Positions 3,306 through 62,107 of a stretch of DNA of 64,000 bases are shown here, piece by piece. The notes beneath the pieces were generated by a model. That model ran no database searches. It saw nothing but the letters and a program-made list of their open reading frames with translations, and was not told the origin of the DNA. The position numbers were made by a program, and so were the translations under genes. This DNA is from Psococerastis gibbosa. Its lineage: Eukaryota; Arthropoda; Insecta; Psocodea; Psocidae. The stretch covers positions 22,532,290 to 22,596,289 of the forward strand of contig OZ020489.1 in the NCBI GenBank assembly GCA_963971405.1, in the 5' to 3' direction. Position 1 is the first letter of the stretch. Each line of letters opens with the position of its first letter.

Positions 3306-3461
3306 TGTGGTTTGGACTTTGGCGCCGCGGAGAAGGAAGCGCGGGGTTAGCAGATCCGTCGGGGCAGGAGGGGGGTGTCGGCTGCTGTCGCGAGCGAGTG
3401 GTTGTGTTGTGTATTGTCAGCGTTGAAATAATATAATATTCCCTTTATTAATTAAACTACA
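3306..3461 (+). repeat. 5' LTR of the Ty3/Gypsy element
   Basis: 156 bp, beginning TGTGGTTTGG and ending AAACTACA, nearly identical to 7024-7187. It is preceded by the ACTTA duplication. Confidence 0.9.
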
Positions 3462-6400: not shown

Positions 6401-7023
6401 CTGCTATTTTACAACAGTACAACTTTCAGATCAGGAGCAGTTGCCAGGCTGTGTGAACGATGAAACGTCCGACTGCTATTCAGATGTATTAATAGGTCTA
6501 GTGGAAATGGAATTGTAGAGCGGAGTCATCGCACCGTTAAACGAATAGCCGCCAGGACGAAACGGAGCATCGCGGAGATGGTGTTTTGGTACAATTTTAC
6601 ACCAAAGGTTGGGTTTGAGGGAGATTCGGTGCCGTGTAAATCGATCAACAGCTACGACTGGCGAAACCCAATGCTCGAGAACAAAGGGGGGCATTCGACC
6701 GTTTCGGTCGGGGAGGTTCAGTGTGGGAGATGAAGTGTTTATGAAACCGCAGGGAGCAAGATGCACGTCTGAGTGGAGAAAGGGACACATAACGGAATTG
6801 CGTTCTGCACAGAGTGTGGCAGTGGATGGCACGCCGGTACACGTAAGCCATGTACGGAAAGTGCCGGCTCAGGAGATCATGGAAGAGGATGCCACGGTGC
6901 TGCAGCCAAGCGATGTTGGAAGAAGGTTGGCGGAGGACAACGAGCCTAGACTAGAGAACGGACTTCGAGGATGAGACGGCAGCCTGCTTGGTTGCAAGAC
7001 TATGATGTGGACATCATGGGGCA

Positions 7024-18765: not shown

Positions 18766-21700
18766 ATGGGAACCAATGCAGATGATCTGGCAATTGAAAA
18801 TTTTCGGACGTACCTTAGGATTCCATCAGTTCAGCCGGATGTCGATTACAGTTAGTTTTTATCCTACTGTATAGTATATTAAGCTAAAACTAGTCTGTTG
18901 CATGTTTACATTTTCGGATTACACAATAGCCTAATTTTGTTTAGCCAAAAATAAAATACCGTACTAAGCAAGGCTATATCAGTCAAAATATGGGGTAAAC
19001 TGCTAAAATTCACTCTGAATATTTTATTCTGTCCATAGGGTAGGTAAGAGTAAGAATATTTTATTTGCAAAAAACTACACTTATACAATACCATTAGTTA
19101 TCCCTGCCCTAAGTTCCTCAATAGGGCTTGTGTTACCGTAACTAATAATTAATGGAGATCAAAGAAAAATATAAACCCATTATTTTTTTTTAGCTGGCTG
19201 TATTGAATTTCTGATGAGGCAAGCAGAGGAAATTGGTTTGGAATATGTAATCTACGAATTCACACCTGAAAAGCCATTGATCATGATGACCTTGAAAGGA
19301 ACTGATCCTTCGCTTGGTAGCATCGTTCTCAACTCACACATGGATGTTGTCACTGTTTCCGATGTAAGTTGCCGCCGACAGCCATTGAGGGGCCCAGTGC
19401 AAGCAGTGGCGGCGCTAGAAATTTTAAGACGGGGGGCCATGAGGGGGCATGACATCTGTCTGGGGGGGCCAATGAAAACACAAAACATTTTTCATTGGGA
19501 GTAAGTATATACCGTTCAATAATTCTGCAATTTAACACCATGTAAAATATCTCAAAAGGGGGGGGGGGGCCGGAGAAACGGTTGGGCAGGCCCCCTCGGG
19601 CACCCCCGTAGCGCCGCCACTGAGTGCAAGTGATTCCCGGGCCCTACCCAATGACTACCTACCAACAGTAGTTAGATTGGGTAGGCCTACTGCTGCTTTC
19701 AGGGACAGATCTTGAATTTCTACTAGCGGAGGGCGCAAACAGGCAAAATTGAAAATGGGGTCCCTCTCCCTCAAGCAGTTGATGTAAAATTAGAAAATAG
19801 CCTAGTATCGAAGTTGTTTGGCATTTAACGATTTAACAGATTTCCAAATATTTTGCAAACAAGAAATTGTGTATTTTTGACAAATTGAATAATTGAATAA
19901 TTTGTTCCACAAAAATAAGTAACTTAGTCAGAGGAAAAATTAATTAATTTACAATCTTTCACATGAAATATAAATTTTCTCACAATTTACACCTACTGTA
20001 TACCATACTGAATTTTACTTGGTGAAACAGTGCTGCAGTACAAATAATCATGAGAGTAGGCTTGCATAGTTTGATCTGGAATGCAGCTGACATTATGATA
20101 TTACTTAGGCTGACTGGCATCATGACCCTTTCGGAGCGGAAATGGACGAAGACGGCAATATTTACGGGCGAGGCTCTCAAGATACTAAACAACTTGGAAT
20201 TCAGTACCTAGAAGCAATCAGAAGACTTCTTAATCAAGAAAGAAAGTTCTTGAGGGATATACATATCACGTTTGTGCCAGGTAGAACATAACCTGCTAAT
20301 TTTATGAACAAATCCTATGTATGTACAGTACAGTATGTATTTTATTGCGTACCATGCGGCATAGTTATTATAACATTAAATTTAGTACGGTATTGGCTAT
20401 GCCACAGCTTCATCAGCAGCCTGATCGAGGCGATTATAATACCGGGGTTAAATAAATACCCTAGGATTATAACTGTAAACAAACAAATTTTGAATAGCAC
20501 TTTCCATTATAAAATTATCTTGTTTACATTTTTATTACCAGGGGATTAAATAAATACCTACCGGCATTATAATCGCCTCGATCAGGCTGCAGCAGCCTCA
20601 GATCATGGCGATTTGGGATTTATTATAATACCGGGGTTTATTCAATTGTTTTAAACAAATGAGTGCAAAATGCGCGATGAATTCAAATTTATAAATTAAT
20701 CCTCGGCTATATTTTTGGTGAGTTTAGGCGGGGTTTCAACATACGTCAATGGTCAATGAGAAATATGGTTTTGACGTGGTAGCAGAATTTTTAGTATGTC
20801 TTTAATGTCTGCTAAAACGTCAATTTCACATTTCTCATTGACCATTGACGTATGTGGAAACCCCGCCTAACAATTTTTTCTCCCTTAGATGTAGACACAT
20901 TAATTAAAATTCGTATTATATTTCAAAATTCTACCGGTACATTTTAATGCTTATTAGTATTCCTTATATTATTAAACAAGGCAACTATTCTCTTGTATTC
21001 TCATAATTCATTAATTTGAATTTCCCGCGCATATTTTAACACGGTCTCGTGACACTTTACTACTGCGGACAGGCGTAAAGTTTTAGAATGATGGCGGGGG
21101 CAAATCTAACTAGACCTTATGACGTCATCAGGCAGGATAAGGAAAAATTGAAAATATAAGAGCAAAATAGTAGGGTTTTACGCATTTTAATAGTAGTAAA
21201 GTATAGCTGTACATTTTACAAAGCTAAAAAAGGAATGTCTATATTCATATTGCTGCAAAGGGGACCATGAAGTATGAACCACCTCTTAAAATACTCAAGG
21301 CGGGGGGGGGGGGGGGGGCAAGTTGGACCGTGCCCCCCCCCCCCCCCCCCAACTTCCTGACTGCGGCATAGAAAAATAACACGCGGCATTATAATAATCC
21401 CAAATCGCCATGATCGGGCTGCAGTTGCATGAACTGTCCATTACTTTTCCATTTTGTTGTTTCATTTCCCACTGTAGTCTGTAGTCATATCCTTTACAAA
21501 ATAACTAATTTTAGTCGGTAACAGTTGCCAATTTAAAATTCTTCGTGGCAATGAAAGTTATTATGCCTCCCATTTCAGATGAAGAAGATGGTGATGCTGG
21601 AATGGGACATTTTGTAGAATCGGACCAGTTCAAGGCTTTAAACGTAGTATTTACACTCGATGAAGGGGAGGCCAACCCTGGACCTGAATATGAGGTGTAC

Positions 21701-42715: not shown

Positions 42716-43798
42716 TTCCTATCAACTCCTCAGATTATTATTGTCTTCCACGCTGTGTAATAGAGACAATCGATCACCACCACCACCCCCCCCCCCCCAC
42801 CTCCCAGTTCGTTCTTCAAGAAAATTTATCAAGAAATATCGATCGTAGAGCCATAAATGAGACGTCATTGAAGATATGATCCTGTACATTTTGATACTTA
42901 GTATGTGACCGTCACTAATACAACAATTTTGGAACTCCTTCGACCTGACATTCTCGGCGTCCGTTATTTTTTACAAAACAAGTTGAACATCTGTGGCCAA
43001 TGGGTTTAGTGACACATAATGTAGGCTATCCACAAGTAAAATTCTTCTACTTTATGACATCTCATCGGTATTTCCTAAGAAATTGAATTTTTTTTTACAC
43101 CCTAAAGGTTTTTCCCCTCCGATTGTCTCTTAAGGTCTACACACAATAATATGTTGGCCTACCGGTAGTCGATTGTCGAAAAGAATCAGGTCTGGAGTCT
43201 TCATTAGTTTTGGTGGTAACTTGAGTGCCTTATAAATGTGTACAAACTTAAGTTAACTTTGTTAATTTTAAAATTGTTTATAAATATATTGCTTCGTTGC
43301 AAGGGAATACCCCTGAAGAAGATAATAAATATATGTTGGCATCATGTTATCGACATTTTTATTTCATGTAAGAGGTAGACCCAGCGCTAAGGTTTCTTTA
43401 GCATCAGAAGCATCAACGGCACACATGTTAAGCGCCTAAAATAATACAATAACGACTGCAATGAATTTAGTTAATTTTTAATTCATGTCAGCAAAAAATT
43501 AACGTCAGCAACACGCGATTTTCTTCAAGTATTATACTTGACAGATGAACATAAAAATATTTACAAGAAGTACCATACATTTTAATATGTTTAAATCTTC
43601 AGGTAGGCACACCAAAGTCAAACAATTTTTAATACACTTGCTAAAGTTTTCTACCGCCTCGGCAGAACAATGTCGTTGGCAGGTGGCAGGCAATGCTTAC
43701 TACTCTCAAGCAGATAGGTCCCTTCAAAGGGTAGGGTAGTCTCTGTTTTTTAGCTTAAGTGATTTACAGCAACTGACAAATCGTGTCGTTCGCTGTTA
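42716..43798. other. Intergenic DNA after aminoacylase copy D
   Basis: Contains AATAAATAT near 43326 and a C-run at 42786-42798. No gene recognised between the end of the aminoacylase array and MITE M4. Confidence 0.35.
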
Positions 43799-43938
43799 GG
43801 CGGTTATTCCGCCGACGTCAATAGTGATAGTACTGGTGGTATTGACGTGGTAGTAGACATTTTTAGACTGTCCTTAATGTCTGCTACCACGTCAATACCA
43901 CAATTACTATCACTATTGACGTCGGTGGAATAACCGCC
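43799..43938. mobile_element. GGCG-end foldback MITE, copy M4
   Basis: 140 bp, ends GGCGGTTATTCCGCCGACGT and complement; arms ACGTGGTAGTAGACATT / AATGTCTGCTACCACGT. Left flank TTA. It lies between the aminoacylase array and the minus-strand gene block. Confidence 0.8.
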
Positions 43939-44185
43939 TTTGGGAATCAGCGCGGTACCGCATGAAACCCCTGGTTGCGCAAACTTCATTCAAAAAACTA
44001 ATTTAAAGGTTCATCCTGGTCCCCGTTGATGCATTATCACGTCTTGGGTGAATATCAAATGACAGAAGTTCTTTGAGAAAGTGACTTGCGTCAAATTATC
44101 AATTATCTTTCGGGGAGACTCATTATAAACGAGAAAACGCATTCGCTTGCCCAATGACACATGCGTTTCAGCAGTCCCAGCTGGC

Positions 44186-47100
44186 TCAACAGGGTGAGTG
44201 AGTTAGCTGTGATTGGGCTTCTTCGGCATGCAGGAGTTGTATGAGTTGGTCCGGCAAATGGTCTGAGACTGGCGACGGAACTGGGCCATTCGATACTTCA
44301 CCAACACTAAAATCAGTATCTGCTGAATCATGATGATCTTCATCATCTTCTAAATAAAACGGGCCCAGCTCAGAATCTTCTACCGTTGTCACCAACTCTG
44401 CACAAGCTGTTGATGCATCTGTGGCATTTGGCGGGCATGATTTAGTGGATTTACTAGCTTGAGCTAGGTCTGGTTCTGACTCATGAAGGATTGCCATATT
44501 CTTAGCTACTAAATCGAACTCATTGCCAGCATCTGCAGCTGAATGAACTGGGCTGGATTCCAAAGAATGAGAGGTAAAACTCTCACTTGCAGCTTCTTGG
44601 CTGGATACTAATTTCGGCTCAAGGGGAGGTGATTCCAAAGTCTGAGGTAATATTGGTTGTTCTTCCTGTGATTCCGACTCAATTACTTCCAAACTGTCAA
44701 CTGTAGCTTCTGTGTGGTCTTTTGATGTTGATCCAATCCCTACCATACGGTTGAAACTGCCAATAGTAGTTTCTCCCCGGTAAGGCTCAGGAAAAGCAGA
44801 CTCTGAAGATTGTGATAAGACTGGTTTTTGTTGCGATGTTGAATCAATTACTTGCAAACTGTCGATTGTACCTTCTGTCTGGTCAGGCTCAGGAAAAGAT
44901 GAGACTGATTGCTCGTGGGATGTTGATTCAGTCACTTCCATTCCGTCAGGCTCAGGAAAAGATGAGACTGATCGTTCGAGTGATGTTGATTCAGTCACTT
45001 CCATTGCGTCAGGCTCAGGAAAAGCAGACTTCGAAGATTGAGATAAGACTGGTTGATGTGATGTTGACTCAATTACTTGCGAACTGTCAACTGTAGTTCC
45101 TGTCTGATCAGGCTGATGAAAAGATTGAGGTGAGATTGGTTGCTCCTGTGATGAGGATTCTGTCACTTCCATAGGGCTGAAACTGTCCATTGTACCTCCT
45201 GCCAGTTGGGATCCTATGTCAGGCTTTGGGAGAGCTGATTCCATGTTAGTTTCTTCCAAACTGGGCATACTTAAGCTGTCTTGCGTTTCGGTACCAGTTG
45301 AATCTCCGGCTCTGGGCATACTTAAGCTGTCTTGCGTTTCGGTACCAGTTGAATCTCCGGTCCTGGGCATACTTAAGCTGTCTTGCGTTTCGGTACCAGT
45401 TGAATCTCCGGTTATGTCCAATTCAGGAATAGCACCAGAGCCTGTGTCTGTTCCAGCCGGATCACTCTCTTTTCGACATGGGACTGTAATGGTCTCACCT
45501 GCAGTGGGTGAATTCAAATCAGCACCAGTATTGGCAAGGGTTGTTGGATCGTTGTCAACAAAATTACCTTCTTTTCCACATGTCACGCCATCAGACCCAT
45601 CACCCGAACTGTCATCTAGGACAATCGTTTCCGTTTCGTACTCTTCGTCTGAATCTTGGGATGAGCTATACTGCACCTTTGCTGCAATAGAGTTCAGCAA
45701 CATTAAGTAACATTAAATAGGTATTAATTTTGTTAATTTAAATAGCAATGACAATACTACGTTAATAAAAATTATGTGCCTCTTACGGATTTAATGTTTC
45801 CATGAAATATATTAATGGGCCTGTTATTTTAGGCATGTGCAGGATATGGTACACAACCGCAAATTAGAGGATATAGAAAAACTGGGCTTGGCTGGATTCG
45901 AACCCACAATCTACGCCTAACCGGGCCGTCATCTGAAGCTCTAATTTTCGGATTTTCGGCTCTATAACGAGGAGGTTACCTCTTCAACCAAAGTTAATTT
46001 AATGTCAGTAACGTATAGTATACATCCCTCGCCAATAGCGTAACATTTTAAAGGCAGATATACAGACAGTACTGTACAGTAGGAAGGGAATATTGTTTAT
46101 TTTTGGAACCTAAAGAATTCCTTTTATTTACAACAATTATAAAAAATTAGATACATACTTTCATTTTGATTGCAGCCCAGTTTTTCATTTTCCTCACTTC
46201 TGTACCACGTCAAAGTAAGCTCTCCTCGCAGGATGGCCTCCACTTTTCCTGAAAAAAAGTACAATGAATAAAAACATAAATGAATTTTAGATGCCAAAAC
46301 TGTCACCTAAATCTCCCATTCCACCTACACAATCCAAATTTAAACGGGGAAAATAATCGCGTTTTAGAGCTATGGGTTTTTGGCATGCCTCTTTGGACTA
46401 GACCGTCTGTGTATGGGGGCCTGCTAATATCCATTTTTCCTAGTGTTAATTGTATTGTAAGCCAATGTTAATGCCTATTATTATTATTTTAAAGGCTTGT
46501 TATGGACGTTGGCCCCTTGAATCTTGCCAAATGCCAACGACCCCATGGATTTTGGACATTAGTATTGTTTCCGCGTGAATTTTTGGCCATGGCCAACCTG
46601 GTACACGCCCCCAATGTCAACCTGCAACGACTACAGCGGTAATGGACAAGCCGTCTTCCTCTGGGGAGTTCGAAGTACGGTATCTACGTGTTTACTCGTT
46701 TAATGATTAATACAATTGTCATTATGATCGCCAATCTTCGATAAACGAGGCATTGGAAAAAGAAGAATAACCACTATGAAAATTCACACGCATCGCTCAT
46801 TTACGTCTTAAGTTAAATAAACCCGAAGTGTGGCATTGCATTTATTTACCTGGACAACTCATAGAATTTAGGAGTTTCTTGCAAATATCATCACTTGAGT
46901 TCTTGAGCATATCCAATTCGTGAGTAAAGTCAGTAGCGTTGGCTGGATTCAGTCTCCAGACATATGCATTTTTCTTAGTGGAGGCCGGAGCTGGCTCTTT
47001 TTCAAACATTTTCAGATTACTTAGCTTCTGTCGCACGGTACTCTCCCAGCCTTTTAAATAATTGTATTTATAATAGGGAAACATCTCGCTGCAATAACAA

Positions 47101-50100
47101 AACATGAATGTGGTTTCATAAAAATCACATTTTTTTTTTAATAAAAGGTTAGTCGCATACAAACAATTTAATGAATGTATCCGATTGACCTCTTCAGTCG
47201 CCTCTGTTGGTTATTAGCACAAGTACGCTACCACCTGGCCATTGAAGTTATTAGAGTACTTGTGTTGGCTTAAACATGCAGTACTTCCGAATTCAACTAG
47301 GGGTAGCCTATGGTATAAGAAAAAAACCGAGTGTGTGCTTGAGACCGCACGGCAGAAGTGAAAACTTCATTGGCAATCCCAATTAATTTATATGCATATA
47401 GTAAATAATATTATGTATTAATGTTTTATTAGGGATCGTATTCGTAAAGATTGAATGAGAAACAAGTCAGAAATTAAAGTTAATATTTATTAAATTCTAT
47501 ATCAATCAAATTATTTTTTACAATGTCTCTTTAAGCATGCATTATTAGCTAATTTTGTCTTTCGTTTTAATTCGTCATCAAGTTTGTTGTTTTGATCCAT
47601 TGACAATGACTAAATGATTAAATATTTTAATATGTGAATTTAAAAACTCAATGGAGCCGTTTTGAGAAGACGTGGCAGGTTGCCCCAGTCATTTTGGACA
47701 GGATGCTTAGGCGCGTATTCCACCTACGTCAATAGTCAATATTAAATATGGTATTGACGTTTTAGCAGACATTAAAGACAGTCTAAAAATGTCTGCTACC
47801 AAGTCAATACCACATTGACTATTGACGTAGGTGGAATAAGCGCCTAAGCATCCTGTCCAAAATGACTGGGGCAACCTGCCACGTCTTCTCAAAACGGCTC
47901 CATTGAGTTTTTAAATTCACATATTAAAATATTTAATCATTTAGTCATTGTCAATGTGAACAAACTCCACTAAGTCACTTCCCCCTTGATAGTACGGTAC
48001 TGGGGACAAAAAATAAAAAAGCATTTGTATGAAAAATGATTAAAAAATAATTTTATTTATGGAGCCTACCTGTCGATGCTTTCTTAGGCGCGGTTTCCAC
48101 AGACCACCTAGTGCTAAATACAAATACGGTGACGTGGTATCAGACATTCAAGACTTTGGCGGGGTTTCCACCGACCTCGCATTGCAGAATGCAAATGACA
48201 TTGATGGAAATTTGAATTTTTCTTTTTATAGAAATCTATTAAAATGTTTGTACTTAACATATCCCATGAAGCCATTTTTTAATGTTAGTTTGTTTGTTTG
48301 TGATTTTACTCTAGGATCATTGATCAATTTTAACTATGGCATAGAGTAAAACAAACATTTCCGTCAATGTCATTTGCAATGCGAGGTCGAACCCCGCCAA
48401 AGTCTTGAATGTCTGTTACTACGTCACCGTATTTGTAGCCTTACTTTAGGTGCAAAATGGACTAACAAAATAGAACAGGTTGTTTTTTCAAGCAAGGTTT
48501 TTTTTAAGACTATTTTTTTTAAAAGTGCAATTATGCATAATCCGTTTGCAATGCATGGCATACCATGACAATATTATTAGTGTAGTATTATATTGGTCTG
48601 TCCATTCTAGACTATGCAATTATCCCATCGATCAGTCCAGTGCTTTAGGATGGGGAAATTCGAGGCGAGTTTAACTCTGGGACAATATACCACGGTTCTC
48701 ATAACACGTATCGACTTCGATGGCCAGGTGGTAACGTGCTTGCGCTTGTGCGAGTCTTTACACGCCATGCAATCGGAGACGTGTCTTACTCATCACGGGT
48801 AATAACCTACAGAGGCGACTGAAAAGGTCAATCGGATACATTCATTAAATTGTTTGTAAGCGATTAATCTTTTTAAAAAAAACAAAAAAACAAAAACGTA
48901 ATTATCTATTACGGCACCTACACTAATTTTATCGATAAATAGGGAAGTATGTACGGGTTCCCTCACACATATTCGTAAAACCGGCGAAAGACAAGGGCAA
49001 AGCTCTAGGCTATATAACTATTCATGACGCACTCAATCTGTATTATATAGCTTGAGAACACTTACCGTATAAAAGCGAATATTCCTTGGGTACTCACTTT
49101 CTTCCCAGGGCTGTTTATTATAGCCAATGTTATCAACATTTGATAACTTATGGGAGGTGCATGGTACTGTTTTTTAAAGCTGGAACTGAAAAGGAATTTA
49201 AGAAAATTGATAAGCTTATTTAAAATCCATTTGGGTTATAGGCATAGCAGCGCGGAACAGGGAGCTTTGGCCCTAGTGGTAAAATTCTTATGGGACGGCT
49301 TCAAAATTCTGAACCGCAACCTTTATGTGTGTCGTAAAGCAGCGCCACCGTCCTGGTTGCCGGTTGTCTACTGGGTGTCTCTAGTTGTCAAAAAGTCAGG
49401 AGTCAACATAGTGTTGCGGTTATCCACTAGATGTCTCTAGTCCCGCTTGCCTTTGGGTATCGGGGGAGAGTGAGACATGCACTCTTCTCGCTTTCTTTCC
49501 CGTCCGCCTTTGCTATTCAAAGATTCTATCGTGTGTTTTGTTTTTCAACGCCTGCTTTTGCATTTCCGCTTTAAGCAACCCTGTCAGCCTGGCGGGGAGA
49601 GTGAGTCTGTTTATTAATTTGAGGCACTCTCACCTTGACTCCTTCACCTCAGGAAAAAGGGTTAACTGACACGGTGTTGTGTGTCTTTAAAACGCAACAT
49701 TTTTTTCTATTTTTAATTGCTTAGTTCAAAATACAGTCTGAGTAAAAACATGCAGCATTGGGTATGTCTGATTCACACAGCATTAACTGTACAGGGTCAC
49801 AATTATGTACCCGCAATGATCCCGATAGGGGCATTAATGTAATAAATTTTTATTCCATAACGTCTCCTTTTGAATGAGGAACGCGCCTGCAAGATCAAAC
49901 TGAATCTTAAATTCATTCATAGAAACTTTCTCAGAAAATGAGAAATCCATTTAGGGGAAGTAATAACTTTTCACTGAGCATTAACAAAGAGTACCTTATT
50001 AGTAGCTAGTTTGGTTAAATATGAATGTGTGTAATAAAACAATACCTTTGGCAGAGTATTGACCCACCTGCTCATGGCGTAATTAGGCATATCTGCAGGT

Positions 50101-53100
50101 AAAGAACCTGAAACAGAACTGGGTTATCAATGTTCAACCTACAGTGCATAAAATTTAGAGGAAAATCAAGGTCACTCCAAAAAAAAATCGATACAAGTAG
50201 AATACTACAAAATTTGGGAGGCTGTACCATAGTATATATAATTTTTGTTAGGTACCAGAGTAAATAAGTGTAGTCAATTAATGAGATTAAGAAAATGTGG
50301 TAAGTAATTTACATTTGGTACGAAGGACGAAACTGCAGCATTTTAAGAGTTAACATCAATTTATTATTCACATAGTAAAATATTAACGCTATTAAGAGGA
50401 TATGGGACGTAGATATTGGTCACACTCCCCCCGTTCCACCATGGCGTGTGCCTGTTTTTCAGGGTTCGCATTTGGACCACTACACCACTTCTCCAGAATT
50501 ATGGATAGTCTTATGAAGCGAGACATCCTTAGAGACAATCCTCGAACCTTTTCTGCTCCAAAAAATTCCCATAGTCATATTTTCACATCAAAGGTGGTAA
50601 AAGAGTACCTAGACCAGAAAAAAAAAACAGAATTCTTCAGCATTGGCCTGCAAAAAGTCCTGACCCCATTGAAAACATATGGGAAATTATTGACCATGAA
50701 GTTCACCAGAAAAAACTGAGTAATGTTATAAAGAACTAAGAAAAACAATTGAAGAAGTCTGGCGGGACATCCCCATCGAAACTATCACTTCCCTGACTCA
50801 TAACTCATCGATACAATAAATATAATACGTACATAAAACATATAAATACATAAATCACAACAAATATTAATAAATTGGTTCAATTAAGAGTTGGCTATAT
50901 ACTATATTTAGTTATGTTCCAGGCATTATTCCGTCTTCAGCACACCCTCTTGAAACCATTGATCCGATTTCAAAGTTTTGTGGTACCTACCTATGATGCT
51001 ACGATATCAAGTACAGATGTGTACGTGGAATAATTTGGTATGGAAAACGATTAACATGTTTGTTCCAGGATTTTTTGTCAACATTACGTTCCACATCCTC
51101 TTAAATAACATGTCAAGAATTTTCTACTTTACAGGAATGAACTTTATATTGTAATTGTTCAATTGTTGTAATACCTGTGATTTGCGAGCCACTTGAAGAA
51201 TCATTACAAGCGAGTACGACATTTTCCACTGCAGTCGTCCCTATCCGTACATCTGTCTGCTGGCTTTGGGAAACTATTTGCTCTGTACCTACGGGCAAAT
51301 TACCTGTAATAAAGTCAATGTTTTTAATAATAAACTACAAATTACAGGTACAATTCCACACTCCGTAGACTGCCTCGTCTGTACAGTAAAATCAGAGTTG
51401 AACCTAACAATAGACATCAATAGAAATAGCTTATCCTCCTATAAACGTCTCATCCACGCGCTGCTCGTGATAACACCCCTGTAATAGTTGCTTATGCATA
51501 CTATTTTTTACATTGTTAACTATGTATGCATGAATAAATATAATAAACGGAAACACTCCAATTTTGACTAAGTTGCTACAAGTCGAATAATAACGGTACA
51601 TATGCTATTATAACGCACGTTGTAAGCCTTCCTCCTAATGCTATTTACTGATTCATGGAATATACTATAGATGTACCATTCTGACCCAGAAGTGTAACAT
51701 AGATCTATGTTACACTTCTGTATAATAATATTACACCTGGTTAGCATTCTGTTGAGACCAATTCTTGTAGATAGTTGGTTCTGTACAAATTCATATAAAA
51801 CAGATTTTTGTGCCGGGTGTTTGAAGGGACATGGATCACTAGGAGGGAAGAACATTCAAACTTATTTGATAGAATATTATAAACAGCAATAACATCATGC
51901 ATGCTTCTCCTCTCAGTTAGTGAACTGATTTCAAACAAATTTAACAAATATTCATAGGTAAAATTGTTTCTAACGACATGTTATGTGTGACCTATTTGTA
52001 TAGCAATTTTAATTAATTCCTAACTGCTTAGGCGGCAATTCCACCGGCGAATTTACTTCGTTTGTGATTTCAGATTTTTTGTTTGTTTATGTTTTAAGGG
52101 GACTATTATGTAGATACTTAATTTATAATAGAAAAGTTAAGAATCTACATAATAGTCTCCGTAAAAAAAAATCAACGACAATGACAAAATCAAATATGAA
52201 GTAAGTAAAATCGCCGGTGGAATAGCCGCCTTAGTTTTTAAACAATGGCGTCGTCTGGATATGATAAATTTAATTAATTTCTTTTTAAGGGGATTACGTT
52301 TTTTAAAATATTAATATTGACTTAAACATTAAAATATTTACGTATTACATCTAAGGGGCAATGTCCTTGTCCTGCAGTAATATAATAACAGCTCAAAAAG
52401 GCCGATTTTGGGGTTTTCGTTGTTTAGAGAAAGACTACTTGGCAGCGCTCATATGGTTTGACATGATGTCGGGGGTGTGTAGCAACTTGCCTCGCGTGCG
52501 TTGATAACATAATTTCAAGACTGGTTCGAGGGTGAAAGTGAATAGCTACAAATATTATTAAAGTACTTATATGCCTTGAAGTATTGATGGGCACTACATT
52601 AAGGACTAATATGAAATCCTTACATGAAGCAATTAATCCATTAACAGTGTCAATAGAAATATGATGGTCATGTCGAAGTTAATAAATTCTAGTTTAAGAC
52701 AAGTTTCAGTGTTGCCTTTTCTTTATTTCGATTACCACCGCAGTGACAGATCAGATTTCATAATAATAATAATAATAATAAAGTCTTTATTAAAAAAAAA
52801 AAAATATGTATAGATACAGCGAGATTAGGGCCTATGGCCCTCTCTTACACCTAACTGTACATAACAACGATATAGTTTGATTGAAATATATTTTTATAAA
52901 CTACATTCATGCAGTATATCAGTCATACCTTTCATTCAAGATAACAGACATACTAATTCACATTTGCTACCATCTACTGTACATTCACACACACATTTTC
53001 TCACACATTCACACGCAGCCTTGCCTTGATCAACCGGTGACAGTGGTTTGCTGACTAAGGAGAAACTTGTAATATTTGTTTTTAAATACGTTGAGAGAAG

Positions 53101-56100
53101 GAGAGGCACGAATTTCTATGGGTATCGAGTTCCATAGTGTAGAGGAAGAGATGAGAAATGAAGAGTGGAAGATTCGGGAATGAGAGAGATGGGTTAGAAG
53201 GAGGTCGTCCCCACGAGTATTATAGGCTCGCGAGGAAAGTGGTGTAAGGGACGAGAAGAGGTAGGATGGGGATTGGGTATGCAGCACTTTGAAGACCAGG
53301 CATGCCTGGTGAAGTTGACGCCGACGTGGTCTCTGTACGAAATGACATTCAGTACGAACCTAACGCAGTTATTCTGCAACCTCTGGAGGTGAGTTGCTTG
53401 TGCTGCGGTCATATCGCTGTAGACTATGTCACAGTAGTCTAGGAGAGGAAATATAAGGGCTTGAACGAGCCGTTTCTTCAGATTAGGGGGCAGAAAATTT
53501 TTCAGGCGCCTAAGAGCGTGTAGTGAGCCCATAGTTTTGCGCGAGGTGTTGGTCACCTGGGCGTCCCATGATAAATCATCAGTAATGGTAATCCCAAGGT
53601 TTTTCACGCTCGTGGTTAGGGAGATTTTAGTGCCTAGTACTAGCACTGGGGGGAGGGAGGAATAATCAAGGGAGGATAGGGTTCTTCGTGATCCAAGGAG
53701 AATGCATTGGGTTTTGATTGGGTTTAGCAGAAGAAAATTGTTTTTAGCCCATGAGGACACCCTATTAAGATCGGCATTTACTTTATTAAAATTCTCATGG
53801 AGATCGAAGGCCGGTAAATGTAAATATATTTGGAAATCATCCGCATATCCGTGGTGTTGGCAATATTCAAGGACAGTGGGAAGATCTAGTGCTGCAATGG
53901 AGAAGTAGAGGGGGGCACACACCCCTCCTTGGGGTACACCGCATGTTAGGTCCCTCCAAGATGAAAAAACTGTCGGTTTGTTGCTGTCCTCCATAGAGAC
54001 ACGCTGCCGTCTACCTTTTAGGTATTGCTCTGTCCAGTTTGTTGCTGAGTTAGAGAAACCAATGGCTTGCAATTTGGCCAGAAGTATTTCAAAGTTGACT
54101 GAATTGAACGCCAAGCTGAAATCTAGTAGGGTTAATAGGGTTAGCTGGCGAGAGTCAGCGGCCCGTCTAATGTCCTCAGTCACTTGAAGTAAGGCTGTGG
54201 TGGTGCTATGCAGAGGACGGAAGCCAGATTGGTGCCTATCAAAGAGATTGTTTTGGAGCATAAACGAGGAGATCTGATCGTGAGCTACATATTCTATGAC
54301 CTTAGAGGAGGCAGGTAAAATTGAAATAGGACGAAAGTCTGATGCAGATAGAGGTTGTTTCTTTTTAGGTATGGGGCGAACATGGGCCATTTTCCACTGG
54401 GAGGGGAAGGTGCTGGATTTAAATGAGTAGTTTATAATAAATGTAAAAGGGGTAATAATGGAGGGGAGAATCATTCGGAGCATTTTAATAGAGATCTCAT
54501 CACCCCCTACAGCGTTTGATTTTATGCGGCTTATAGCCTTTTCGACTTCTGCAGTGGTTACCTGCTTAAATGAAAAAGGTTGGTAGAGGGGGGGAGGTCG
54601 AGTCAGAATTTGGCGGACTGAAGAGGAGACAGCGCCAGGGTCAGGAGTCGGTAGAGAACAAAAATTGACATTTAGTTCCTCTGGGGAGAAGTTGGCAGTG
54701 CTGCTTTCATTTTGGTTGGCCTTCCCGAGCCCAAGCCCTCTAAGTTTGTTCCAGGTCTGTTTGGTATTAAGAGTGTTTGCTAGAGATGCAATACAGCGAA
54801 CTAACGGTATTTACATGTGTGACTATGATTTTTTTTAAACGTGGGTGCATACACAAGCCAACACTCGCATTTTTTCGTTTATGTTCGTTTGCATTATGTC
54901 ATTAAGACACCCACGCTACTCGTTTGGTGTACTAAGTAGAATTTCACGGGAAATATTAATTGTAGAGCTATAAAATATGTAACAGGAATTACAAGAAATA
55001 TTTCTCTACATAGTGATAGATGGTTAATGTGACCGTCAGTAACACCAATATACAAAATTGATTTGTACAAAACGATTGGTAAGGTAACCAGATATGGAAG
55101 GGATTTGAAAACTGTGGCCCCATATCATGTATCAAAATGAAGAGAAGTATTTCTTCTAATGTTTTTATTTATTTTTTTATAGCGCTAATATGAATATTTT
55201 TTATGACAATCGACTTTGTACAATAAAATGAGCACTGAGTATGTCAGGTTTGCTCTTAAAGAATACGTATGAAATGAAATGAAATACGCCTTTATATTAG
55301 GCGAGCTTTAGCCCCGAAGGGCTAGTCTACCAGCTAACCTATTTTGGTTTAAGATTGCCCAGTTCGCAAAATGTTAAAATGTTTAGTTACCTTTTATAGA
55401 CATTAATTCATTTTGATATTGGTCTAAATCGATCGGCACGACATGAGACGGGGTCTGAGTAACAAGTAACAGATTAAGTTGACCATCCCACATCAATTCA
55501 CCCCGAAACATGGGTCCAGCCTTGTCTGCAACGAAACAATTGAGGATTTAACTTCAGATGCATGAGCAATCGAAATTGAGAATACAAAAGACGGGAAAAG
55601 AAAGTAGAATCCGGGATAATAGGCCGTGGTCGTAATTAGTCCGTAATTGATAAATAGCAAAGCATGTTCGAGTAAACTCGGACCAGTTCTTATGACTGTA
55701 ATTAGCTTATGGCGAGAACCTCGAAGCTTAATCTCAGTCACTTCATTGTTTACGCTGCGAATACCCCTCTTACTCGCCTGATTTAAACTAGTAGAAATCT
55801 GATTATCTGTTTTTAATGCCCAAATATTTCAAAGTAACAATGGAAATTATTACCTGCGGTAATGCGTTGTAAGTCACAAAATAAAACTAAATTTATCATA
55901 ATTCATTGAAGTTCATGATTTACTAATTGACTGTAAAATAAATTCAGGCATATTGTATATGGCGATTGGATTTTTGCAGCATATATTGTACATGACACCA
56001 CACGCGTATATAGCTTTTAATGATCTGCTGATCGACATATGAGGAGCTTGGTTACAAACGTGGCCAACTCCATTTTTTTACAAAATGGGGTTTTGATCCG

Positions 56101-56528
56101 ACCTTGCAGAAAATTTTAATGTCCACCTGCACGTTGTAAAATAAAGTGACAAAAGCAGCCAGATTGCGCACAGAAGCGCTGAGAAGTCTAGGGTTAGCTT
56201 TAAACTTAATGCAATTTTCAACAGAAAATCCACTCTCCTGAAAAATTCCACAACTTGGAGTTGGCCATGTTTGTAAATAGCCTCCTCATATAATTATGCT
56301 TATTATCAAATTTTCATACCTGGGAAAGGCATGGAAGCCCTTGCAGAAGGCAGAAAATTCGTCAAATGTCTTTCAATGTTGGTTCTCACTCTGCTTATTA
56401 TACCCTCCCGTAGAGACCACGATGGTTTACTACAGCTATCCGACTGAAACACCTTGGTTTCAATTAGAAGAGTACTTTGCACATCATTGTCCAACTGTCC
56501 GATTCCTTTAAAATGGGGGAAGTACATC
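44186..56528 (-). CDS. Forkhead (FoxN-like winged-helix) transcription factor exons; possibly 3' part of a THAP-forkhead gene
   Basis: Minus-strand exons with consistent phases: 56404-56528 (2 in,1 out), 55391-55525 (1,1), 51175-51303 (1,1), 50046-50107 (1,0), [missing joint], 49066-49185 (2,2), 46850-47088 (2,1), 46159-46248 (1,1), 44186-45681 (1, TGA). Exon 49066-49185 begins the forkhead domain (YHAPPISYQMLITLAI, then KKVSTQGIFAFIR); 46850-47088 continues it with EMFPYYKYNYLKGW, ESTVRQKLSNLKMFEKEP and NAYVWRLNPA, the recognition helix and wing. FEK plus W.LNPA resembles FoxN1/4 and FoxR more than FoxA-type. Upstream exons are Gln/Ser/Thr-rich. The last exon (497 aa) is an acidic Ser/Thr/Pro tail with repeats, a plausible activation region. 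Likely a nuclear DNA-binding regulator. The phase gap between 50046 and 49185 needs one unseen exon. Confidence 0.72.
45261..45412 (-). repeat. 51-bp tandem coding repeat in the tail exon
   Basis: Three near-identical 51-bp units start at 45261, 45312 and 45363. Each encodes a 17-residue unit GDSTGTETQDSLSMPR plus one variable residue. A second, looser repeat of about 22 residues (FPEPDxMEVTESTSxE) lies at about 44880-45030. Both keep frame, as expected in a disordered acidic region. Confidence 0.9.
45870..46030 (-). repeat. tRNA-derived SINE, family U, copy 1 (uninterrupted)
   Basis: On the minus strand it carries a box B GGTTCGAATCC (GTGGGTTCGAATCCAGCC) and CCTCCTCGTTATAGAGCC. The same order is present at 58515-58592 and 58809-58830, where MITE M8 splits it. 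Located in an intron of the minus-strand gene. Confidence 0.55.
46500..46650 (+). repeat. Interspersed repeat family T, copy 3
   Basis: Same ordered blocks as 25965-26105: CCAACGACCCCATGGATTT, GGACATTA, GTGAATTTTTGGCCA and TGTCAACCTGCAACGACTAC. Confidence 0.6.
47158..47285 (-). repeat. Short interspersed repeat family S, copy 2
   Basis: Minus strand reads ATGGCCAGGTGGTAGCGTAC, then AACAGAGGCGACTGAAGAGG and TCAATCGGATACATTC, matching 48700-48872. It begins only about 70 bp upstream (in the gene's sense) of forkhead exon 46850-47088. Confidence 0.55.
47598..47956. repeat. 359-bp palindrome: MITE M5 plus 112-bp inverted flanks
   Basis: MITE M5 (47710-47844, ends GGCGCGTATTCCACCTACGT / complement, flanks TTA and TAA) sits at the centre. 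Outside it, 47598-47709 and 47845-47956 are exact reverse complements over 112 of 112 bases by eye, while the two MITE arms differ at several positions. The flank belongs to repeat family R in minus orientation, which continues naturally only on the right. The left arm is therefore the added copy. Confidence 0.85.
48087..48440. mobile_element. GGCG-end foldback MITE M6 with a second family member inside
   Basis: The outer arms are 48087-48157 (GGCGCGGTTTCCACAGACCA, GTGACGTGGTATCAGACATT) and 48399-48440 (AATGTCTGTTACTACGTCAC). The right terminus is eroded. At 48158-48398 lies a complete second foldback (GGCGGGGTTTCCACCGACCT / complement), sitting exactly where the outer loop would be. The inner copy has the TTTGTTTGTTTGTGATTTTA loop also found in M9. 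Confidence 0.75.
48158..48398. mobile_element. Inner foldback MITE within M6
   Basis: 241 bp with ends GGCGGGGTTTCCACCGACCT and complement; arms GCATTGCA(G)AATGCAAATGACAT pair well. The loop shares GGCATAGAGTAAAA and TTGATCAATTTTAAC with M9 at 60061-60553, so it belongs to that subfamily. Confidence 0.75.
48700..48872 (+). repeat. Short interspersed repeat family S, copy 3 (longest)
   Basis: Contains GATGGCCAGGTGGTAACGTG (box-A-like), TTGTGCGAGTCTTTACACGC, AGGCGACTGAAAAGGTCAAT and CGGATACATTCATTAAATTG. Located in an intron between the two forkhead exons. Confidence 0.55.
50395..50815 (+). mobile_element. Broken Tc1-like transposase fragment
   Basis: Across frames the translation shows SGFAFGPLHHFSRIMDSLMK, then HTSKVVKEYLDQKK (the second catalytic Asp region with a preceding HTSK), W PAKSPDPIENIWEIIDHEV (third catalytic site, DLNPIENIW in intact relatives) and a C-terminal KSGGTSPSK-like end. 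At least two frameshifts and one stop. Only the C-terminal half survives. It lies in an intron of the minus-strand gene. Confidence 0.65.
52031..52230. mobile_element. GGCG-end foldback MITE, copy M7
   Basis: 200 bp with TTA on both flanks (52028-52030, 52231-52233). Ends are GGCGGCAATTCCACCGGCGA and its complement; the centre AAGGGGACTATTATGTAGAT pairs around TTTATAATAG. Confidence 0.85.
52762..54780 (-). mobile_element. LINE (CR1/L2-like RT), 5'-truncated, minus strand
   Basis: The frame runs open from about 54770 to 53194. The pre-RT linker (TKQTWNKLRGLGLGKANQNE) is followed by the RT: AVGGDEISIKML, ASDFRPISILPASSKVIEYV, HQSGFRPLHSTTTALLQVTE, LDFSLAFNSVN, CGVPQGGVCAPLYFSIAA, HGYADDFQIY, VKNLGITITDDLSW and RLQNNCVRFVLNV. 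A single frameshift near 53290 leads to the C-terminal FLISSSTLWNSIPIEIR block (to 53030). The element ends in an (ATT)-type tail at about 52762-52785. RT YADD is intact. It appears relatively young. Motif wording (DFRPIS..., STTTALL, YADD.QIY) suggests CR1/L2-like LINEs. Confidence 0.87.
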
Positions 56529-56649
56529 CTAAAAACAAACAAATTGTTCTAGTTTCATCAAATTATTGTTATGGTCATTGTAGTAATAAACATACAGTAT
56601 ATCTGTAACAGGCGAGGGACATTCTATTAAGGGGTGTTCATAAACTGCA

Positions 56650-56975
56650 CTATCCTGTAGAGATCGTGTCCTTAATGCTGAGGTCCTGAGGCGAATTGAT
56701 ACAGAAGCCGAGTTGCTGCTGATGGTTAGGAAACGGAAACTAACATACTTCGGCCATGTGATGAGGAACGAAAAGTAACGCCTTCTGCATGTAATAATCC
56801 AAGGGAACATAGAAGGACAGAGGGCTCCCGGCATAAGAACATCCTGGTTGAGAAACCTGAGGCGGTGGTTTGGCAAGAACACGACTTCCCTTGTGACAAT
56901 AGCAGTCTCCAAGGTACAAATTGCCATGATGGTCGGCAAACTTAGATAGAAGAGGCATTAACGAAGAAGAGAAAG
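56650..56975 (+). mobile_element. LINE C-terminal fragment, plus strand
   Basis: The frame reads VLRRIDTEAELLLMVRKRKL, TYFGHVMRNEK, then after a stop LLHVIIQGNIEGQRAPGIRT, SWLRNLRRWFGKNTTS and VQIAMMVGKLR. This is the common tail of insect endonuclease-reverse transcriptase LINE proteins. No RT core is present. It lies immediately upstream (gene sense) of exon 56404-56528. Confidence 0.75.
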
Positions 56976-57119
56976 TGCTTATTCTAGGGAGAGTTACATT
57001 GTAACAAAATGTCAGCCGACTCTATGATGATACGACGGTACACTCGCGAATTAGAGCAAGAAAGTAGCGTAAATTGACGGTGGCGCTCGAAATCAATACA
57101 CGGTAGTCGACCCATAAAA

Positions 57120-57545
57120 GATTAAGGCTGTTGGTATGAATCCAAAGGCGTAGGAGCAAAATGTTTTAAATTTTATTTTGGGCTAACTCAGTTTGGGGGG
57201 GTTTTATACTAAAAAAACGTCTAAAAAAATCATTTCTCAAAAACGGCTCCAACGATTTCTCTTAAATTCACATATATAGTATCTGTTATTAATGTTAATA
57301 AAATGCGGGGTGTCCCTTGCCCCTTGATAATTTGCTTCTGGGGGTAAAAAAATAAAAATAACTAAATTTTAATGAAAAATTACTAAAAATAAATTTTAAT
57401 GAAAAATTACTAAAAATAATTTTTCTGCGAAACCTTTCGATCGATGATTTCTACCTTCAGGCATGTTTTAGATGTTAAATTGAGTAATGAAACCGGACAG
57501 GTTGCTTTCGCAAAAAACTATTAGTAGGCTTTGTGGAGTTTTTTT
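57120..57545 (-). repeat. Interspersed repeat family R, copy 4 (minus)
   Basis: The complement of the family: GGGCTAACTCAGTTTGGGGG, AACGGCTCCAACGATTTCTC, TTGCCCCTTGATAATTTGCT, CTGGGGGTAAAAAAATAAAA, and GGACAGGTTGCTTTCG at the far end. Confidence 0.65.
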
Positions 57546-57966
57546 TTTTGGAAAAATTATTGAAAATTCACGGTCAACACGGTCAAATGCATTGCATGCC
57601 CTGCCATTGTTACTGTGTGGTAATGAGTTGGTCTGACCTATCTAGAATTTACCTCACCTCCAGGGACGTCAGGTGGACAGCCCCCCCCCCCCGAGATATC
57701 AGAAATTTATTTTAAATTATTTACCATGAAATTACTAATTTATCAATTGGAAAGCATGTTCGAGTAAACTCGGACCGGTTCCTTCTATATTGCATTAGCC
57801 ATAAAAGGTTGAGGAACGAGAAATTAATTAATTGCGTGAAAATAATTTCAGCCTCTTCATTATTTAATATGTACAGTATATGCTACCATGAAAATCATAA
57901 GGAGTAAAGGAAACATACCGCAAGAAAAACGTTATTTCTGAGACCACCAAACCTCTTTGAGGACCG

Positions 57967-60900
57967 TTAATCATCGCCAAAATCACTAATATTTTCATGG
58001 ATAATGGAGGTCTGATCCACCGTGTTGGTTGGCTGAAAATCACAAGAGTTCATTATTTAAGACATCCCAGCTATCCAAGATTATTTCGTAAGCATTAGGT
58101 TCTTTTTTGCTTACACGCATTACTTTTCATTATGTTTGTTCGAACGAAGTGCTGAAGTCCGATAAACGTTCCTGCAAGTCGAGTGGCAAGTTCAGGTTGC
58201 ATGGTGTGCCCGTTAGTCTAGTTGACCTAATTCGAACTGACCTACCTCCGGTTTTCAGTCTGCTCCCATTACATTTTGGACACACCCGGTTTTTAAAGAA
58301 ACCTATTCCAATCTGACAAGTTAACATACTGCAAGCAAACACCTAAATTAATGTTTTACCTCTGTGTTTCTTCATTTTTTTCTTTAAAGGTCAACTTGCA
58401 CGTCTTATTATTGCAATACTACAACAAAAATATAGGATAATGCATTAGTATTGCAAGAAATTATTTTCTAATAAACCTTACCTATAAAAAAGTTATTAAC
58501 CGACATAAGGGGATCTAGAAAAATTTGAACTAGGCGGGATTGGAACCCACGATCTATGCCTTGCCTCTAATTTCTGTTAAAACGAGGAGTTAGGCGGCTA
58601 TTCCACAGACGTCATTTTTCAATGTGCATGTGAATGATGTGGTAGCAGACATCATTAATAAGTCTCTGCCATATTTTAAGGAGACTATAATGTAGATACT
58701 TAACTTATCTATTATAAATTAAGTTATAATATGGTAGACTTATTAATGATGTCTGCTACCACGTCATGCACATGCACAATGAAAAACGACGTCGGTGGAA
58801 TAGCCGCCTTAGTTTAATGTCAGTAAATACACTATAATGCTACAGTATATTAAAAATTCGTGTACGCTTTCTGCTGGATGAACTAAAATCGGGAAATAGC
58901 TTCGTTGGCTGATATCTGGCATTATCTTCTAATGATTATTATTCATCATTTAAATATTGGGAACATAAGCTAATGTACGACTGCAGGTAGCGCGCTTGTG
59001 CCTGTGCTTATGGAAGCCTATGATCTGTTGCAAATTCATAACACTTACGGTTTGTGTTGACGCATCTTTCACATTAGGTTTGACAGCTAGTTTTGAGATG
59101 CGGGTAGAATTTAAACTCCTGAAAAATAAGTGGAAGAACAACGATGAGTGGGAAGTTACCCATGACCACTGACAGCGTCTAGGAAATGCTGGCTTCTATG
59201 GACCATTTAGCTCAATATCTGGCTGAACAGTGGCATAAATAAATAAATCCGTGGGTGTCGTCACAGGGTGGCTGAGTCTCTGAGAGCCCGCGAGTAACAG
59301 CTGCCATACTGCGAAAACTCGCCATCATTGCAGCAGCCCGATCATGGCGATTTGGGACTATTAGAATACCGGGGTTTATTCAACTGTTTTAAACACATGA
59401 GTGCAAAATGCACGGGAAATTCAATTTGATAAATTATATTTTTGGTGAGTTTTCAATTCTTTCTGCCTTAGATGTAGACACATTAATTAAAATTCTTATT
59501 ATATTTCCAAATTTTACCTGTACATTTTAATGTTTATTAGTATTTCGTTCAATTATTAAACAATGCAACCATTCTATTGAATTCTAATTTATTTTTTTGA
59601 ATTTCCCGCGCATATTTTAACATCGTCACGTGACACCTTACTACTGCAGTATTAAAAATTAACCCCGGCATAATAATAGTAATCCCAAATCGCCATGATC
59701 GGGCTGCAGGGGTGATTAACTCATTGGGTTTGAGGATGGGGCTCATCTATGTGTCTTTATGAAGAAACTAATGACTTATGTATTGGCCACGGCAGGATGA
59801 GATAGATTGCTGACACAGGATCTCATCCCATCAAGTAGGCTGCAGGAGCTATAGTAAGAGGCCAGAAGATTTAAAGCCAGATGTTTTGATTACAATTACT
59901 TCACTTCATCCAACGCCCACTCGCCATCTGGTGCCACGCCTGCCATTATAGTGAAGTAAGGATTATATTGGTCGGTAATTATTTGAAAAAAAACATTATG
60001 CTTAACAATCAAAACCACAGAATGTGTACATTTATGAAATAATAATTGAATACCACTTAAGGCGGGTATTCCACATACGTACATCGTCAATGAAAATTAT
60101 AAAATTGAAGGACATTTCAATTTTTCATTTATAGAGGCCATTCCACATGTTTTTTTCTTCAAAAATTGACAATTTTCTATTGAAACGTATGCGCCAAATT
60201 TTTGAAATTTGTTTGCATTTGTTTTTTGAAATTTTGTTTGTATTTGTTTTCTTCGTACACTTATTATTTTTAATAAAACCTAATAATAGTAGGAGATCCG
60301 AAGTAAGATAGACCTTCACCGATCTGTTTAAAGGATGAAAACTGTTTTTTTTAAAAAAATCAATTAAAATAATTGTACTTGACACACTTGACATATACCA
60401 TGACGCCATTTTTTAGTTTTAGTTTGTTTGTTTGTGATTTTACTCTATGATCAATTGATCATTGATCAATTTTAACAATGGCATAGAGTAAAATTGAAAT
60501 GTCCTTCAATTTCATAATTAACATTGACGATGTACGTATGTGGAATACCCGCCTAAATCCGTTGTAATCCATAAAAGTAAATAAATAAATAAAAAATGAC
60601 ACAATACTTATTAAAGTAAACTCCTAGTTAAATTGATGTTATGCATAAATCTAATTTTAACACGATACAGCTTAATTATTACTGTCGCATTAAATGTATC
60701 GGCAAAACATTTAATTTACATACCCTGGTTGTTGCTCCCTTATATTTTTCTCGTAGTATTCGATAACGGCTTTGGCTTTCGCTCTCAAAAGCCGCTTGTT
60801 TTTGTACGGAGGAAGATGGATATCAGGCACCGCGAATGTCTTGAGAATCGGCTCTTTCTTCTTTAACTCTAAAATACAGAAAGTAATTGCTTAAGTTTCG

Positions 60901-62107
60901 GTTTTATCTTAAGGAAACGTGCCTTTTATTTATTTAACAGCCCTGAATGGTCACTATCCTCTGCTGTCTCACTGTCTTCTATAGATCTATAGGTGTACAC
61001 CTACGTGTCTACTAACGGGTCAACTGGGGCTGTTCGGTGGGTTGTGAGCACTTAGTAATATTATATCAATAGTTTGACTGTTTTTTATTGTTAAGATTAG
61101 CTATTTAACTGGAATATACCGCTGTCTGGTTTCACTACTGAGCGCCTATTTTACATTTTCCCAATGATCCACGTACAGTCTAGTGCACTGTCACAGACTT
61201 CAAAATAAACAACTTATGTGACTAACCAGACTAGCATGTACAATACAAAATCAACACCCATTAATCCTTGACTACCAATGTCATCTCACATTCACCCTTC
61301 AACCTTCCTTCAGCACACAGAACTCCTAACATTGATAACCCCCCTATTTAACAGCCATCGCATTATGGCGCATATGCCACCAAAGTGGTTTCTCATCATA
61401 ACAAAAAACATGATGTGTTCAGTATTCAATCTCATACAAGCCTGATCCGTTTAGTACTTGATTACTTATTATTACTCACATAACAACCCTGATATTTCCT
61501 ACTCCATGAGCATTAATAATTAACTTAGCAGTCTAAGCTCACCTGGATCTATGTAGTTTTTGTCAGAGAAATGAGCACTGCACACGTAGGAGTGGTCAGT
61601 AACAGTCTCAGGATCTAATTTTAATGAAATGACCCAAGCAGCCCGAAGATCTACCACATCCTGCTTTCCATTCTCACGCCACCACCTGACCTGTTCAGCA
61701 CCTACACGAGGGAACCCATAGTAGTTGAATGTTCTCATACCCTTGCATCCTTCTACACAGCAATTTGGTCTCCGGCGCTAAAAAAGGGTTTCGTAATTAT
61801 TTCACAGTTACACAATGTAGTAACTTTGCAATTTATCTAGAGAAAGGTTTGTGCCGTAAGCCTTCTAATGATAAAAATCCGGAGAACAATTAGACTAGTA
61901 CTACGATTCGCCCTGCCCTAAATCTAGGGGCATATTCTGCTGTTTTCGGGACTTAGTTTAAATTGACTGAAAGTTGTTTGAAGTCTTGATCCATTCCCCT
62001 TTGGGCTTTGAGTAAAATAAAAGCCTTATTACTTACGGGTTTCTTTTTCGAAGGGACTGCTCGTATAGGGCCTACAGACGGTCTTAACTCATCAGCGGAG
62101 GAAGGCA
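57967..62107 (-). CDS. THAP-type zinc-finger protein exons; possibly 5' part of a THAP-forkhead gene
   Basis: Minus-strand exons: 62037-62107 (phase 1 in, 0 out), 61543-61777 (0,1), 60724-60868 (1,2), 59049-59118 (2,0), and a possible terminal exon 58032-57967 ending in TAA. Exon 61543-61777 starts RRRPNCCVEGC and runs through FNYYGFPR, RAAWVISL and YVCSAHFSDKNYIDPG, the C2CH ligands and fold of a THAP DNA-binding domain. The next exon supplies LKTFAVPDIHLPP, equivalent to the conserved AVPT box, and a basic helix. The fourth ends NVKDASTQT. The start codon lies upstream and was not found. With the 57967 exon the product is a short THAP protein (PTNTVDQTSIIHENISDFG end). If that exon is skipped, an unseen exon (phase 0 to 2) must join 56528 and the forkhead exons. 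THAP proteins bind DNA as transcription regulators or derive from P-element transposases. Confidence 0.75.
58515..58592 (-). repeat. tRNA-derived SINE, family U, copy 2, split by MITE M8
   Basis: Minus strand holds GTGGGTTCCAATCCCGCC (box B region). The family match resumes at 58809 as TTAGTTTAATGTCAGTAAAT, which is continuous with AACGAGGAG in the uninterrupted copy at 45870-46030. Confidence 0.5.
58593..58808. mobile_element. GGCG-end foldback MITE, copy M8
   Basis: 216 bp with TTA on both flanks (58590-58592, 58809-58811). Ends are GGCGGCTATTCCACAGACGT and complement. Same subfamily as M2. Confidence 0.85.
59333..59707. mobile_element. TIR element (GCAGCCCGATCATGGCG family), copy 2, uninterrupted
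   Basis: 375 bp with inverted ends of about 27 bp (GCAGCCCGATCATGGCGATT and complement). The interior matches 20592-21422 without the nested MITE and G/C insert. Non-coding. It is the reference copy for the family. Confidence 0.8.
60061..60553. mobile_element. GGCG-end foldback MITE, copy M9 (long subfamily)
   Basis: 493 bp, TAA on both flanks (60058-60060, 60554-60556). Ends GGCGGGTATTCCACATACGT and complement; the loop holds TTTGTTTGTTTGTGATTTTA and a TTGATCATTGATCAA palindrome shared with the inner copy of M6. No coding capacity. It ends about 170 bp from exon 60724-60868. Confidence 0.8.

Follow-up and report, generated by a model that had tools for sequence, protein, structure and literature searches.

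THAP and forkhead domains are both widespread DNA-binding domains of animals. In the FoxP proteins a zinc finger is likewise combined with a forkhead; their finger is of another type than THAP, and they have a single forkhead. The THAP proteins, such as THAP1 and the P-element-derived factors, share with the locus described here a complete THAP domain with its AVP box, and they differ from it in that the THAP domain here has a forkhead as partner. Also close is FOXN1, with its FoxN1/4 class (solved structures 5ocn and 6el8; jumeau in Drosophila), each member of which has, to our knowledge, one forkhead. The locus lies on the minus strand, between positions 62107 and 44186, of a stretch of 64,000 nucleotides (contig OZ020489.1, assembly GCA_963971405.1, positions 22,532,290 to 22,596,289), and "the window" below means this whole stretch. 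It encodes a THAP domain and, downstream of it, a degenerate forkhead (FH1) and a complete one (FH2). Our searches, which covered an open-access library, found no description of a THAP-forkhead pairing or of a protein with two forkhead domains.

PMC8918179 and PMC8469257 describe FoxT as a panarthropod subfamily that includes fd3F and Crg-1 and is a derived line related to FoxN1/4, and the former places it next to or within FoxN1/4. FoxT is a candidate home for the forkheads of this locus, if the gene is an arthropod one. The term count for THAP is 0 in PMC8918179 and in PMC9269926, and THAP is not mentioned in PMC8469257 either. The word forkhead is absent from PMC10027918, a survey of transposable element-derived factors that include THAP.

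The simplest reading of the locus would be a single gene with both kinds of domain, since the two joints between its exons that had remained open can both be closed in frame, and since the exon module on the forkhead side is duplicated. We give the single THAP-FH1-FH2 gene a probability of about one half.

The THAP domain and two forkheads

An earlier note on this stretch had reported a complete THAP C2CH domain with AVP box on the minus strand, and the profile search bears this out. Joined in phase 1 and queried within a joined piece of 173 residues, the exons 61777-61543 and 60868-60724 encode a domain that matches Pfam THAP over the full profile (1-87 of 87) with an E value of 5.9e-9 and 37 bits, the curated cut-off being 23.9 bits. 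The C2CH ligands (CCVEGC...CSAH) are present within a single exon, and the AVP box (TFAVPDI) falls inside the profile match. The pattern C-x(2-4)-C-x(30-60)-C-x2-H has only one match in the six frames of the whole window, the THAP exon itself. A PDB sequence search with the 173-residue piece gave two matches, neither of them significant (E 0.18 and 0.27).

The complete forkhead that had been reported downstream on the same strand is equally clear. The exons 49185-49066 and 47088-46850, joined in phase 2, give FH2, which matches Pfam Forkhead over positions 3-87 of 88 (E 8.5e-21, 74.3 bits, cut-off 27 bits). The sequence comparisons lean towards its description as FoxN-like. FOXN1 is the top solved match of FH1 (5ocn, E 0.0024, among 17 matches listed) and the closest one of the second exon of FH2 taken with its LNPA tail (1e-5), but the whole of FH2 is nearer to FOXG1 (4.5e-15, against 1.7e-11 for FOXN1, among 47 matches listed, the two weakest of which are non-forkheads; the row 5a5u is labelled eIF3B). 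The locus differs from FoxN1/4 in having a THAP domain and a second forkhead.

That second forkhead, FH1, lies between the THAP domain and FH2. Its two exons are 58032-57919, which encodes RPPLSMKILVILAMINGPQRGLVVSEITFFLR, and 56528-56320 (MYFPHFK...), and the joint between them is in phase 2. The former of these exons, and with it FH1, had been overlooked in the earlier exon list; the listed exons themselves hold, and the six given in addition to those of the two domains are all open, flanked by AG and GT, and in the phases reported. Together, the two FH1 exons match Pfam Forkhead over profile positions 2-56 with an E value of 0.0015 and 19 bits, which is below the cut-off, and the first exon (a) by itself gives 0.058. 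The alignment of FH1 with FH2 scores 81, and none of 2000 shuffles scored as high; the same (0/2000) is true of exon a of FH1 compared with exon a of FH2. This alignment spans exon a and the FPHFK at the start of exon b, and the homology of FH1 rests on these two parts. Exon b alone is weak, with 160 of 2000 shuffles as good against FOXN1 and 35 of 2000 against FOXG1. In a global comparison with a FOXN1 reference to which a further stretch of the protein had been added, none of 5000 shuffles was as good as exon b, and locally 88 of 5000 were. Because of these shuffle, PDB and FOXN1 comparisons, we consider that FH1 is a derivative of a forkhead in which the recognition helix and the wing have drifted.

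The two forkheads have more in common than their sequence. Both are split at the identical place, in phase 2, and the second exons of both end at SM-x-x-P-G, in phase 1; the score of the latter match is reached at 30 of the 3684 GT sites, including those of FH2 and FH1 themselves. Each is also followed by an exon, or a candidate for one, that runs from phase 1 to phase 1. The exon after FH2 (c2, 46248-46159) starts GKVEAILRGEL, and the candidate after FH1 (c1), which starts DKAGPMFRGEL, is the top 1-to-1 candidate of the splice-candidate search between FH1 and 50107 (acceptor 3.3, donor 4.3). When c1 and c2 are anchored at their starts, their match has a score that is reached at 5 of the 3756 AG sites, including those of c1 and c2 themselves. 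A further candidate, d1, was first spotted as an open frame, and it also runs from phase 1 to phase 1 according to the splice-candidate search. The presumed intron of 6 kb contains two in-phase candidate exons (55525-55391 and 51303-51175). These comparisons suggest that exons a, b and probably c were duplicated, with d uncertain.

One gene or several

Each of the two joints had been thought to need an exon that goes from phase 0 to phase 2, and the second of them needs none. At the joint before FH2, the donor at 50068 (CAG/gtgggt) scores 6.6, as compared with 0.5 for the one at 50046, and it exits in phase 2, as 49185 requires. For the exon 50107-50046, an end at 50068 is the more likely one; it would then join FH2 directly, and with the exit in phase 2 there would be no missing exon before 49185.

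The joint at 59049 does need closure, and there are four candidates for it. If the AVP-box exon is joined from 60724 directly to 58032, skipping the candidate linker exon L, the chain has 1006 residues; with 58328-58242 in the place of L it has 1035; with L and 58312-58242, 1053; and with L and 58418-58360, 1049. All four closures give a phase-consistent open chain from the THAP domain to the final stop at 44186, and there are no stops or frameshifts inside the exons of the tested chains. The gap between the AVP-box exon and FH1 (2.7 kb, or 1.6 and 1.0 kb with L) does not fall outside the sizes of the other introns. In the splice-candidate search, two 0-to-2 exons were found in the 1 kb gap and none in 10,250 bases of other same-strand intron, at thresholds (minimum scores of 0.3 for the acceptor and 2.0 for the donor, minimum length 20) that were set after both candidates had been seen. 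The Pfam search for further exons covered 7 + 7 pieces, and no Pfam match was found for the candidates in 58328-58242. A 26-base microexon, 58328-58303, was dropped as the missing exon for its donor score of -4.3; its product, YVNLSDWN, resembles FoxN sequence.

Several results weigh against a single gene. The earlier claim of one protein with both domains gains from joints that can be closed in frame, but agreement of phase across the modules is expected by chance at about 1/3 per joint and is thus weak evidence. The four closures are indistinguishable, their splice scores being weak, and a start codon was identified in none of the chains. Codon usage gives no support, and it fails on the certain exons too, for which the fraction of null frames that were as good is 0.178 (THAP exon) and 0.446 and 0.390 (FH2 exons); the row for the phase-0 reading of 58032 was set aside, since its stop codon had been counted in and had lowered the score. 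Within the duplicated module, exon b of FH1 compared with exon b of FH2 is not significant (720 of 2000 shuffles as good), and exon b of FH1 queried with its neighbour found no match in the PDB. The unanchored comparison of c1 with c2 is not significant either (331/5000), and homology of d1 to the start of the tail was rejected (431/5000, not significant); the mismatched control, d1 against c2, scored better (57/5000). Poly(A)-like hexamers come after points at which a gene might end earlier (ATTAAA at 58818 and 57868, AATAAA at 50365), such hexamers being common in this sequence. Finally, there is a fifth closure, in which L is joined directly to 58032, and this chain meets a stop at 57967 after 194 residues and would be a THAP-only protein.

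The fifth closure leads to the alternative that survives best, which we consider unlikely: two neighbouring genes on the same strand, a short THAP gene that ends at or before 57967 and, distinct from it, a Fox gene that contains the forkheads. The THAP gene would end either at 58950, where L meets a stop on read-through, or by the join of L to 58032 in phase 0. L does exit in phase 0, which leads to the stop at 57967 in the next sure exon, ATTAAA is present at 58818 and 57868, and proteins with a THAP domain alone are common. However, the forkhead sequence in 58032-57919 is encoded in another frame, and reading this exon in phase 0 would be a matter of accident; repeats seen elsewhere in the window take up 880 bases of the 2.7 kb gap, leaving little intergenic room; and in-frame joins exist.

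Somewhat less probable again would be a tandem duplication of a Fox gene, in which gene A consists of THAP, FH1, c1 and d1 with the stop at 51113, and gene B starts in 50107-50068 (MPNYAMSSS...) and contains FH2 and the tail, so that THAP was either joined to one forkhead only or lost from gene B. The duplicated exon modules, the stop soon after d1 on read-through and the in-frame ATG codons within 50107-50068 would all be explained in this way. However, the acceptor of 50107-50068 is strong (4.0), and the entry phase of this exon, 1, matches the exits of c1 and d1; merely 1 kb or so would separate the genes; and a second THAP pattern is absent from the six frames of the window. That the locus is only what is left of one or more such genes, decaying and no longer coding, is very improbable: FH1 is degenerate, both recognition helices are altered and repeats surround the exons, but no exon of the tested chains has a frameshift or stop, the tail is open over 497 codons, and its repeat periods, 51 and 63 bases, are multiples of three.

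Base contacts and a possible role

PMC7062188 reports that Asn317, Ser318, Arg320 and His321 of FOXN1 contact bases and that the core DNA-contacting residues in the recognition helix show strict conservation even between family members whose specificity differs. These contacts, conserved in FoxN1/4, are altered here. At the four positions, FH2 has Ser, Thr, Arg and Gln in the alignment, so that Arg alone is kept (GWESTVRQKLS, as compared with GWKNSVRHNLS), and FH1, for which the alignment is weak, has Asn, Asp, Gln and Ser there, with Asn alone kept. The changes would imply that neither forkhead probably reads RYAAAYA or GACGC in the usual manner any longer. The two-headed transcription factor proposed earlier is doubtful for the same reason, both forkheads having changed some of the FOXN1 base-contact residues, and a two-headed reader of canonical sites seems unlikely. 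The THAP domain, because its zinc ligands and AVP box are kept, would be the likelier DNA reader.

Returning to the single gene, we predict from the sequence each functional step of the following scheme. One minus-strand gene would encode a nuclear protein with the order THAP, FH1, FH2 and long acidic tail, in which a single module of exons was duplicated in tandem to give FH1 and FH2. THAP would most likely bind DNA. The forkheads would retain much winged-helix sequence, and since their base-contacting set is partly replaced, their target would probably be an altered site or a partner protein. The acidic tail, which has a net charge of -78 and looks like an activation region, would probably activate transcription. 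We tentatively suggest that this is a single factor in which THAP has taken over targeting, and in which two tandem forkheads derived from FoxN1/4, their reading helices rewritten, are re-used as a pair for a new DNA site or for protein docking. If this is true, a DNA-binding domain gained a new partner and then, as a duplicated pair, lost the residues with which it had read DNA.

The tail has no Pfam match. It contains tandem repeats in frame at 44882-45024 (period 63 bases, 2.3 copies) and at 45261-45412 (period 51 bases, 3.0 copies, 98% matches), and both are likely to vary in length among individuals.

Exons of the locus and other features of the window

The exons and candidate exons are listed in Table 1. 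The candidate upstream of the THAP exon, E1, has modest splice scores (acceptor -1.3, donor 2.1), and a start codon is absent within it.

Table 1. Exons and candidate exons in the order of the predicted gene; phases are given as entry to exit
Feature	Position	Strand	Phase	Remarks
E1, candidate exon 5' of THAP	62037..62107	-	1 to 0	Lysine-rich end; open in chain frame; already in the earlier note
THAP exon	61543..61777	-		All four zinc ligands, CCVEGC ... CSAH
AVP-box exon	60724..60868	-	exits 2	Completes THAP domain; Pfam match reaches profile end, 87/87
L, candidate linker exon	59049..59118	-	2 to 0	Contains STQT; acceptor 7.6 (above 1% level of AG sites), donor 1.5
Candidate exon	58360..58418	-	0 to 2	One of four closures to FH1; acceptor 2.4, donor 2.4; chain open
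Alternative candidates 58312-58242 or 58328-58242	58242..58328	-	0 to 2 or 2 to 2	Acceptor 0.3 or 0.7, donor 2.8; both chains open
FH1 exon a	57919..58032	-	2 to 2	First half of degenerate forkhead; absent from the earlier note; shuffle and Pfam evidence
FH1 exon b	56320..56528	-	2 to 1	FPHFK, drifted recognition helix, SMPFPG end; FOXN1 fit
c1, candidate exon	55391..55525	-	1 to 1	DKAGPMFRGEL...; probable paralogue of 46248-46159; splice-candidate search
d1, candidate exon	51175..51303	-	1 to 1	Acceptor 4.7, donor 0.5; read-through stops at 51113
M, exon before FH2	50068..50107	-	1 to 2	SLPADMPNYAMS; in-frame ATG codons; acceptor 4.0, donor CAG/gtgggt 6.6
FH2 exon a	49066..49185	-	2 to 2	Pfam Forkhead 8.5e-21 with exon b
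FH2 exon b	46850..47088	-	2 to 1	GWESTVRQKLS as recognition helix; ends at SMSCPG; FOXN1 closest among solved structures, 1e-5
c2, exon after FH2	46159..46248	-	1 to 1	GKVEAILRGEL...; acceptor 6.5, donor 1.6
Last coding exon	44186..45681	-		497-residue acidic Ser/Thr/Glu-rich tail, stop TGA; open frame, tandem repeats

Two other open frames lie on the minus strand within the locus. One, 58342-58130, has 70 residues with CPKC, overlaps the candidate exons before FH1 and has no Pfam match. The other, 53194-54810, has 538 residues, contains a reverse transcriptase domain (Pfam RVT_1, 6.5e-31) and is an insertion resembling a long interspersed nuclear element between c1 and d1, on the same strand as these.

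Scans for relatives elsewhere gave little. Among viral contigs, 16 stretches fit the pattern for FH2 and six fit that for THAP, and none of either was confirmed. The scan of bacterial and archaeal genome contigs for THAP gave 65 stretches, one of which was listed; it was rejected as a relative, being a bacterial open frame that shares DPETVTDH and has no THAP domain. The window has no tRNA or Rfam matches.

In the remainder of the window, 10981-11310 and 19175-19504 on the plus strand are two frames that resemble each other and look like exons from aminoacylase-1 genes in tandem. Part of the former matches a solved aminoacylase-1 (1q7l, 4e-8), the latter was compared by eye only, and the whole frames have no Pfam match. 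Consecutive open frames at 3452-6974, also on the plus strand, are zinc-knuckle-like and reverse-transcriptase-like by eye and probably belong to a retroelement of the long terminal repeat type. Just beyond the final stop of the locus, 43798-43939 is a near-perfect inverted repeat with arms of 64 bases that are 94% complementary and 14 bases apart; similar stretches occur elsewhere in the window (depth up to 8), and it is probably a member of a palindromic family like the miniature inverted-repeat transposable elements.

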